This document shows positions 58,473 to 60,507 of a DNA stretch of 64,000 nt, piece after piece. The DNA comes from Flavobacteriaceae bacterium (GTDB taxonomy: Bacteria > Bacteroidota > Bacteroidia > Flavobacteriales > Flavobacteriaceae): contig WUAI01000015.1 in the NCBI GenBank assembly GCA_009827225.1, positions 1-64,000 of the forward strand. The letters are read 5' to 3'. The notes under the pieces were generated by a model. The model ran no database searches and had not been told where the DNA came from. It saw only the letters and a program-made list of their open reading frames with translations. Both the position numbers and the translations under genes were made by a program. How positions within the stretch are numbered: position 1 is the first letter of the stretch; each line of letters begins with the position of its first letter.

Positions 58473-59258
58473 ATGAACTTAAACCTAACAAACAAAAATG
58501 CCCTTGTATGTGGGGCCAGTGCAGGAATCGGTAAAGCCAGTGCCATGGAATTGGCCCATCTTGGAGCAAACATTACCCTGGTGGCAAGAAGTGAAGAGAA
58601 GTTAAAATCGGTGTTGGCGGAATTACCGTCCAACGCTGATCAATCGCACAATTACCTTGTGGCAGATTTCGATGATCCGGAAGATCTCAAAGAAAAAGTG
58701 ATCCTGGCCACCCAGCAAAAGAACTACCACATCCTGATCAATAATACCGGAGGTCCAAAAGGAGGCCCGATTTTTTCTGCGGAAGTATCCGAATTCACCA
58801 AGGCTTTTTCGCAGCATCTTGTTTGCAATCAAATACTGGTGCAGAATGTAGTCCCTGGCATGAAACAAGATAGATACGGACGGATTATCAATATTATTTC
58901 CACCTCGGTGAAACAACCCATCGACGGTTTAGGTGTAAGCAACACCATACGAGGCGCAGTGGCCAACTGGAGTAAAACGCTAGCGAATGAATTGGGTAGT
59001 TTCGGGATTACGGTTAATAATGTTCTTCCCGGATTTACCGCGACGGACCGCCTCGATGACATCATCGCAAATGCGGCCAGAAAGTTTGGGACATCAAAAG
59101 AAGAAGCTTCTAAAATGATGAAAGGTTTTGTTCCTGCCAAGCGATTTGCTGCACCCGAAGAGATCGCTTATGCCGTTGCCTTTCTTGCCAGTGAAGCAGC
59201 TTCCTATATCAACGGAATTAATGTTCCTGTTGATGGTGGAAGAACAAAATCTTTGTAA
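58473..59258 (+). CDS. SDR family protein without the catalytic Tyr/Lys
   Basis: A 261-aa short-chain dehydrogenase fold. The cofactor motif GASAGIGK (14-21) and NNTGG (90-94) are intact and the Ser strand is NIISTSV (140-146). Where YxxxK is expected the sequence reads LGVSNTIRGAV (153-163), with no Tyr and no Lys. It probably binds a cofactor but may not follow the usual mechanism. Its role in the operon is unknown. Confidence 0.85.
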   Translation: MNLNLTNKNALVCGASAGIGKASAMELAHLGANITLVARSEEKLKSVLAELPSNADQSHNYLVADFDDPEDLKEKVILATQQKNYHILINNTGGPKGGPIFSAEVSEFTKAFSQHLVCNQILVQNVVPGMKQDRYGRIINIISTSVKQPIDGLGVSNTIRGAVANWSKTLANELGSFGITVNNVLPGFTATDRLDDIIANAARKFGTSKEEASKMMKGFVPAKRFAAPEEIAYAVAFLASEAASYINGINVPVDGGRTKSL

Positions 59259-59266
59259 CTTTATAC

Positions 59267-59410
59267 GATACGCGTGAGGGGTTGAAACGGCATCCCCTGT
59301 AGTGCCCGAAAAGTAGAGCGAAGCTCACTTCAGGACTACTGCAGGGATACAGTGTAAAACCCGACCCGTCGTGCAATGAGCACCGCGAATTGCCCAAGGG
59401 GCACGCCCAA
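59267..59410. repeat. GC-rich structured intergenic element
   Basis: In the 166-bp gap between the SDR and decarboxylase genes. Pairings visible: GCGTG (59272-59276) with CACGC (59402-59406), GGGTT (59279-59283) with AACCC (59358-59362), ATCCC-C-TG-TAGT (59292-59303) with the complementary run ending at 59348, an inner AAGT-A-GAGC/GCTC-ACTT hairpin (59311-59330), and GTGC-AATGA-GCAC (59371-59383). It resembles a REP-like or structured RNA element; only one copy is seen here. Confidence 0.6.
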
Positions 59411-59424
59411 AACAACCACCATTC

Positions 59425-60507
59425 ATGAAACGTAAACTTCGAATTAACGGCCATTCTCATCTGCTTCCCTATCCGGAAGAAATTCCTGATTTCATGAAAG
59501 AAAGTGGAATATTCTGGGTGGACGAGGATCGTAAGTTCATGCTTCAGAAGAATTGGAGCCGGCCGGTGACCGATTCGAGTTTCTTTCTCAAAGAAAAACT
59601 GGAATGGATGGATAAGTTTAAGATCGATCATGCGGTGGTCTTGAATTTGTCCCAGTTATACGGAAATGGCCTCCGACTGGAAGAAATGAAGAAAGCTTTG
59701 CGTTTTCAAAATGATTTTAACGCGCGAGTGCAGCATGACAATCCTTCGAAATTTACTTGTGGATTTGTAGTGCATCCCGGATTTGTTCGGGGAGCGCTAT
59801 GGGAAATAGAACGTTGTGTTGAAGATTTAGGCCTTCAGCTTCTTTGCTTGCCCACTCACTATATGGATACTATTGGTACGTGGCGTTGTATTTTTGACGA
59901 AGAGAACGAACCGATTTTTGAACTGGCCAGTAAGTACAACCTTGCTGTGGAGATCCACCCCTACGATGGAGAAAAGTTCATTTTACTGGAGAATACCTCC
60001 TGGCGTTTCCACCTCATCTGGATGTTGGCACAATGCGCAGATGCTTATCATTTCCTTACCCTGAACGGTTATGCCGACAAGTTCCCGAACATGCGTACCT
60101 GTTTCGCACATGGTGGCCAATTGGCACAAATTAACCTGGGAAGAAGGATACAGGGATTCGATGGAAGGCCCGACCTGTTTGAAGGGAAAGTTCATCCAAG
60201 GAAGTCGGTGGGACATAAAAACATCTTCTTCGATACCTTGGTACACGACACAGGATCCTTAAAACTTTTAGTAGAAAACCAGGGGCCAAAGCAGGTGCTT
60301 GTTGGGCTTGATGATCCATATCCGTTGGGAGAAATGGAAAGCGCACCTCAATCCTCGTATCCCGGAAAGATATTGGATCTTGCCATGGAACGTGACATAG
60401 TTACGGAAGCCCAGGCAGATGCCATGTGGGAAGATAATGTGATCCAATGGCTTTGTGGAGATGACGAAGCGGCCAAACAAAAATTGCTCGACCGAATATT
60501 AAGTTAA
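59425..60507 (+). CDS. amidohydrolase, 2-amino-3-carboxymuconate-6-semialdehyde decarboxylase (ACMSD-like)
   Basis: Zinc enzyme of 360 aa that in this pathway diverts aminocarboxymuconate semialdehyde away from quinolinate. Metal ligands: HSHLLPY (HxH, residues 10-12), HPGFV, FAHGG and LVGLDDPYPLGE (catalytic Asp). Length and motif order fit ACMSD. It overlaps the O-methyltransferase start by one base (TAATG). Confidence 0.88.
   Translation: MKRKLRINGHSHLLPYPEEIPDFMKESGIFWVDEDRKFMLQKNWSRPVTDSSFFLKEKLEWMDKFKIDHAVVLNLSQLYGNGLRLEEMKKALRFQNDFNARVQHDNPSKFTCGFVVHPGFVRGALWEIERCVEDLGLQLLCLPTHYMDTIGTWRCIFDEENEPIFELASKYNLAVEIHPYDGEKFILLENTSWRFHLIWMLAQCADAYHFLTLNGYADKFPNMRTCFAHGGQLAQINLGRRIQGFDGRPDLFEGKVHPRKSVGHKNIFFDTLVHDTGSLKLLVENQGPKQVLVGLDDPYPLGEMESAPQSSYPGKILDLAMERDIVTEAQADAMWEDNVIQWLCGDDEAAKQKLLDRILS

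Follow-up and report, generated by a model that had tools for sequence, protein, structure and literature searches.

A predicted three-way-junction repeat related to Flavo-1 resides in the kynurenine operon of many Flavobacteriaceae

What lies in the gap between two genes of a flavobacterial kynurenine operon, and what could it be doing there? The window analyzed here, a stretch of 64,000 nucleotides from a Flavobacteriaceae genome, carries an SDR gene (58473 to 59258, + strand; stop codon at 59256 to 59258) in the same operon as a downstream amidohydrolase-family gene (59425 to 60507, + strand; PF04909, start at 59425). Genes for kynureninase (TIGR01814, above its cut-off) and an aldehyde dehydrogenase also belong to this operon. 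A search of the amidohydrolase-family gene against NCBIfam gave no match; from the operon context, we take it to encode an ACMSD-like decarboxylase. The 166-bp gap between the SDR and amidohydrolase-family genes is mostly taken up by an element that the first-pass annotation had described as far more structured and GC rich than its surroundings, and the measurements bear this out. The GC content of positions 59267 to 59410 is 0.569 against a mean of 0.423 for the window, a value reached in a fraction of 0.0004 of 144-bp segments taken every 12 bases. The RNA folding energy of the same positions is -53.5 kcal/mol (z = -3.14), which none of 200 shuffles equals, and all 710 sampled + strand segments of equal length fold less stably. 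The outer, middle, and nested hairpins described earlier are all present. The limits given with them enclose real structure, but the natural limits according to our model of the family, R1, are 59272 to 59408 on the + strand (62.6 bits, E = 4.6e-13); between these, GC content and foldability exceed those of nearly every other stretch of the window.

The remark that the element sits where a gene might have been turned out to be half right. In many relatives, HAO (3-hydroxyanthranilate dioxygenase) lies between the SDR and ACMSD genes (PF06052 confirmed for one), and here HAO is absent from the 64-kb window and is found on another contig (G000:C11:24255-24704). However, the element occurs in relatives both with and without HAO, so it is not a simple substitute for this gene, and we rejected replacement of HAO as an explanation. 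Another feature of the gap is TAACTTTA at 59256 to 59263, which spans the SDR stop codon and is identical in 54 of 96 kynurenine loci, whether or not they carry the element. The motif is similar to a Bacteroidetes -7 promoter box and may be an internal promoter for HAO/ACMSD.

Comparison with the Rfam Flavobacteria motifs, as the first-pass annotation had proposed, produced a match to Flavo-1 (RF01705) at 59259 to 59370, with 31.0 bits and E = 0.0004, which falls below the gathering score of 42 bits. The P2 core of Flavo-1 and its paired segments are conserved in the window copy in a full-length alignment to the model (1 to 76), and R1 unites this copy with copies that score above the Flavo-1 threshold. 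Core sequence and pairs, multiple copies, and occurrence in Bacteroidetes are common to both, whereas the Rfam model has neither the P1 outer stem nor the P3 hairpin, and the window copy has a long P2 tip. These alignments identify the window element as a diverged, extended relative of Rfam Flavo-1. The statements on Flavo-1 in Weinberg et al. 2010 class it as a probable RNA of Bacteroidetes, probably not cis-regulatory, without giving a function (PMC2864571), and none is given either where a 2022 review tabulates it among abundant sRNA families (PMC9029176). In Flavobacterium psychrophilum, the relevant passages place Flavo-1 matches sense or antisense to transcribed regions, with many in neither, and offer no functional clue (PMC9723704). 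Titles and abstracts on Flavo-1, RF01705, Bacteroidetes RAYT, and flavobacterial palindromic repeats describe neither an outer stem nor a dispersal of Flavo-1.

Alignments of the copies reveal a conserved unit larger than the Rfam model, of which P2 is the Rfam part. Its order is a 5-bp stem (P1), an A, P2, a G followed mostly by A or G, P3, a short linker, the returning arm P1', CC, and A-rich sequence. In the window copy, all on the + strand, the 5' arm of P1 (GCGTG, 59272 to 59276) pairs by covariation with its 3' arm (CACGC, 59402 to 59406). The 5' side of P2 (59278 to 59294) contributes the paired segments GGG, TT, AC, and ATC, with conserved internal loops between them, and its 3' side (59346 to 59362) contributes GAT, GT, AA, and CCC; the palindromic P2 tip occupies 59295 to 59345. 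A GA junction (59363 to 59364; G in 78 of 79 copies, next base A or G in 69 of 79) leads to the P3 hairpin (59365 to 59400), which has a CCC:GGG base and a variable interior, and the unit ends in CC (59407 to 59408), with A-rich sequence next in most copies. Counts on 79 copies, here and below, leave out 13 copies from genome G011 (L232 to L244), namely, 12 near-duplicates of L231 and, without need, L243, which is a different copy.

Covarying changes, sought at the suggestion of the first-pass annotation, are present in P1, P2, and P3. In an alignment of 26 copies chosen partly for P1 (A1), 97.3% of cells are paired and 13 of 17 pairs show double changes, which 0 of 500 shuffles match; in 92 fetched copies taken mostly from the top of the R1 list, the corresponding values are 97.9% and 16 of 17. 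Because R1 scores P1, its pairing in the 92-copy set leans upward, and we therefore checked P1 on copies that had been selected solely by their Rfam core. An exact complement of P1 lies downstream in 23 of these 27 copies, compared with 3.1% for the arms of other copies and 7.3% for shuffled arms, in a set that leaves out 9 of 36 copies outside the arm pattern (eight Flavobacterium-type and one other). Together, the alignments show a predicted three-way junction of P1, P2, and P3 with covariation in each stem. Unpaired bases of the internal loops are kept as well: A in 79 of 79 and 78 of 78 copies, and G in 77 of 79 and 77 of 78. In the window copy, the junction has an energy of -48.0 kcal/mol when enforced, compared with -53.3 for the minimum-energy fold, and the three P2 pairs looked at have probabilities of 0.01 to 0.02 (two pairs) and 0.41. 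The minimum-energy fold of this copy is thus not the three-way junction, which counts against the explanation we favor below.

A search for other copies was rewarded as well, and the observation thus survives the refuting condition that the first-pass annotation had set on copies and covariation. With a limit of E ≤ 0.01, R1 finds 14 matches in the own genome, down to an E of 0.009, of which 12 were used in the comparisons and the two weakest left out; BLAST finds 11 places similar to the window copy, itself included, and seven RF01705 matches are listed, one of them above 42 bits. Counting the own genome, RF01705 occurs in 33 of 60 genomes, with up to 32 matches per genome, and the family is present by R1 in 27 of 40. 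Among 198 genomes drawn from the phylum, R1 finds it in 28, of which 13 belong to the same family, 2 more to the order, 11 to the class, and 2 to the phylum. Plasmid or phage carriage was considered and rejected: neither collection searched contains a match to the element, and IMG/VR holds one exact match to the consensus.

Relative to genes, as judged from mechanical ORF calls, the 92 copies are tandem sense in 21 cases, tandem antisense in 26, convergent in 16, divergent in 5, and undetermined in 16, and 8 lie inside an ORF call. With 21 sense against 26 antisense copies, the family lacks the constant orientation of a cis-regulatory leader. On the + strand of the element, G-U outnumbers A-C by 21:4 in P1 and P2 (binomial p = 0.0009, 79 copies) and by 42:12 with P3 included (92 copies), counts that the training of R1 on such copies may have tilted slightly toward G-U. 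The ratio is 7:0 in the set of 21 sense copies and 6:2 in the 26 antisense copies, and the excess in the latter is easier to reconcile with a function of the strand of the element itself than with one of the host mRNA. These small counts hint that the + strand of the element, rather than the mRNA, is what folds. An own promoter was sought and rejected, with no clear enrichment upstream of the 79 copies for either TAnnTTTR (12 versus 11.8 in shuffles) or TAnnTTTG (8 versus 4.2, sd 1.9). An intrinsic terminator was ruled out by the absence of a U tract and by the A-rich 3' side, where the first three bases past the end are A in 70, 86, and 81% of the 79 copies.

We assessed the persistence of individual copies by comparison with fetched copies of ten other genomes. 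For 9 of the 12 own copies, a different species or genus has a copy at the orthologous position, and its strand is the same. From 48 between-genome pairs, 33 were used, after dropping 4 with the G011 copy L233 and 11 within groups already used; several rest on a single matching flank. Their changed stem pairs comprise 66 double changes that preserve pairing, 8 one-sided changes to G-U, 7 one-sided breaking changes, and 4 double breaking changes. The 33 pairs share loci and are not independent; in the 13 pairs with no shared copy, counted apart, the numbers are 19, 2, 2, and 1. This comparison shows old copies holding their intergenic places in different species and genera, with stems that change mostly by compensation. 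Frames follow the locus: orthologues of the own genome and genome G004 are 91% alike, compared with 74% for other pairs between these genomes, and their P1 stems are 97% alike, compared with 66% otherwise.

The P2 tips behave differently. Tips of copies in the same genome are 51% alike (a figure that leaves out G011), those of orthologues 41%, and those of other between-genome copies 39%, and tips more than 70% alike make up 13.5% of same-genome pairs versus 0 of 33 orthologous pairs. Between the own genome and G004, however, orthologous tips are 43% alike and other pairs 45%, which counts against our favored explanation. By eye, 8 of the 12 own copies have a palindrome around GAAGTAGAGC/GCTCACTTC at the P2 tip, in both orientations, and it also appears in some P3 hairpins (L219 and L223). 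One of eight G004 tips (L297) has the same palindrome, so the tip is not strictly genome specific.

Is the element a regular occupant of the kynurenine operon? The R1 matches at E ≤ 1 in 100 kynurenine loci (917 kb in total) number 34, and 33 of them lie in one gap, just after SDR and before ACMSD or HAO-ACMSD, all in sense orientation. The 100 loci were taken from 110 (L078 to L187), and the 80 named loci are the best of 567 candidates; 4 of the 100 lack SDR, so the tree comprises 96. In an alignment of the 34 copies, pairing reaches 98.5% and 15 of 17 pairs show double changes. Among the 33 site copies, L110 is the weakest (E = 0.054), and two pairs of loci (L103/L166 and L132/L161) are apparently identical in sequence, which leaves 31 distinct. 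Carriers include Luteirhabdus, Altibacter, Cochleicola, Mesonia, Marinirhabdus, Bizionia, Psychroserpens, Snuella, Mangrovimonas, and Subsaxibacter. Across many Flavobacteriaceae, the predicted element is thus resident between SDR and HAO/ACMSD, and always in sense orientation.

Presence at this site is patchy, with the element detected in 33 of the 96 loci and undetected in 63, a count in which L142, L165, L129, and L146 are scored as absent although they look by eye like degenerate copies. R1 may miss copies because it favors one P2 interior. At least three interior types occur at the site by eye, as recognized with a regex descriptor that gave 26 matches (one, L149, probably false), many false low-score matches, and no match to several site copies, the window copy included; later counts were made with R1. 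Other interiors within the same frame are seen in L126, L153, and L170 and in L134, L156, and L168, with R1 scores of 30 to 47 bits. A quick SDR tree requires at least 23 changes, 11 of them forced by starred branches, compared with a shuffled mean of 27.8, so the element is weakly clustered. Many relatives evidently do without it, which again counts against the favored explanation. Elsewhere the two orientations are about equally common, which makes it unlikely that the element was gained here many times independently and always the same way round; an old insertion followed by many losses fits better, the alternative being an orientation-specific insertion.

The family has also spread recently. 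Genome G011 contains 13 copies of 91 to 92 bp (L231 to L242 and L244) that are about 90 to 98% identical. Copy L235 is 95 to 97% identical to L238, L240, and L242 over positions 701 to 795 only, which correspond to the element plus three bases, and its flanks differ; identity that ends at the limits of the element indicates that it can be copied as a discrete unit. Further G011 copies (within L231 to L244) share upstream modules that are longer and more diverged, seem to fall into two kinds, and are reminiscent of a composite repeat, so some copies may have moved as part of something larger. A mobilizing gene was sought as Y1_Tnp and was found neither in the own genome (0 genes) nor in G011. 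Thirty Y1_Tnp loci fetched from relatives contain no convincing adjacent copy, with one match of 14.6 bits (E = 0.17) discounted. Across 60 genomes, own included, Y1_Tnp and Flavo-1 co-occur to a modest degree (15 of 19 versus 18 of 41, Fisher p = 0.013, tallied by eye), and genomes with many copies but without Y1 (G001, G011, and G025) indicate that Y1 is not a present requirement.

The first-pass annotation had suggested a structured RNA or a REP-like element, and parts of both suggestions hold: the element is related to Flavo-1 and is a dispersed, REP-like repeat, but it lacks the marks of a true REP. The REP tags GTAG and CGTC, described in passages of PMC3733652, are each absent from all 79 copies within 8 nucleotides 5' of P1, and on the other strand beyond the 3' end they occur in 1 and 0 of 79, respectively. 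Without these tags and without a Y1 transposase, the element is not a REP by definition, and a REP with RAYT was ruled out on the 0 of 79 tags and the lack of a Y1 gene in the own genome. Like REP/BIME repeats with RAYT in those passages (PMC3733652), it is dispersed, mostly intergenic, and palindromic, and it occurs in both orientations with few copies in divergent gaps; it forms dispersed multicopy intergenic palindromes, with 14 matches in the own genome and 8 of 92 copies inside an ORF call. It differs in being a three-way junction rather than a single hairpin and in its 14 matches, compared with the over 100 REPs per genome given in PMC2817692. Two Flavobacterium species are named in a table of PMC12306157, and a search of PMC2267715 for terms on Bacteroidetes genera found none.

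Two other classes came into consideration. Integron attC sites were one candidate. MITE-like non-autonomous elements are likewise short and discrete, with complementary ends and recent copies such as those in G011. Unlike them, our element has no linked transposase and no target duplication recognized by eye, and its old copies keep their structure in place.

We consider it somewhat better than an even bet, with a probability of roughly 0.55 for the explanation as a whole, that the element is a dispersed, extended Flavo-1 repeat resembling REP/BIME, with structure maintained in place and an effect on the operon. By analogy, we infer that it may work as REP/BIME repeats do. Former or rare trans-acting machinery would spread it; in the kynurenine operon, the folded intercistronic RNA, beginning 13 nucleotides past the SDR stop and ending 16 nucleotides before the next start, would alter stability or read-through; and this in turn, as the least certain step, could make SDR and ACMSD expression unequal. 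Such an intercistronic effect is the likeliest candidate for a local role, and a putative regulation of the downstream gene is plausible. A dedicated cis-regulatory leader of HAO/ACMSD, such as a riboswitch, attenuator, or protein-binding RNA sensing a kynurenine-pathway metabolite, would account for the shared strand and position of all 33 site copies, which come from many genera, for their compensatory changes, and for the overlap of the -7-box-like TAACTTTA with the SDR stop. Yet the family also sits at unrelated places, and its even orientation there (21:26) argues against a dedicated kynurenine regulator, as do the 63 loci of the same operon in which the element is undetected, P2 tips that differ between orthologues, the several P2 interiors at one site, and the presence of TAACTTTA with and without the element. 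We regard such a leader as improbable.

A stand-alone structured RNA, an sRNA gene of the kind envisaged for Flavo-1 in Rfam that would be transcribed from its own + strand independently of its neighbors, is only slightly less improbable. It agrees with the G-U excess, found in sense and antisense copies alike, and with the conserved unpaired A and G positions; against it are the lack of clear promoter enrichment upstream and the passages on F. psychrophilum, where many Flavo-1 matches lie outside transcribed regions (PMC9723704). A neutral or selfish mobile repeat, whose palindromes would stay complementary through quasipalindrome (template-switch) correction or gene conversion rather than through selection, is unlikely too, if the least so of these alternatives. 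The near-identical G011 copies, tips more alike within genomes, and double changes with few intermediates all speak for it, but correction would erase the unpaired internal-loop bases that are kept, and the P1 variants inherited between species are specific to their loci. The best reading of the sequence comparisons is that the element is under selection for its shape and is a long-standing resident of the kynurenine operon.

A broader proposal, which we advance tentatively and think doubtful, is that extended Flavo-1 elements are a class of dispersed nucleic acid undescribed in the cited papers, namely, domesticated mobile structures in which selection acts on the three-way-junction frame of the element's own strand, at fixed chromosomal sites and whichever way the genes run, tips are exchanged among copies within a genome, and spread relies on machinery other than RAYT. 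If true, these elements would have a host role at the level of the chromosome or of RNA. Flavo-1 has stood without a function from 2010 to 2022 in the cited parts of PMC2864571 and PMC9029176. With its architecture completed, with compensation at orthologous sites in both gene orientations, and with recent spread, Flavo-1 becomes a mobile structured repeat, perhaps recruited to a function, that is open to experimental testing, with natural comparisons of loci with and without the element already existing at the kynurenine site. A second class of RF01705 matches (L019 to L026) seems, by eye, to pair on the outside as TAGC/GCT and to have a short linker where P3 would be.
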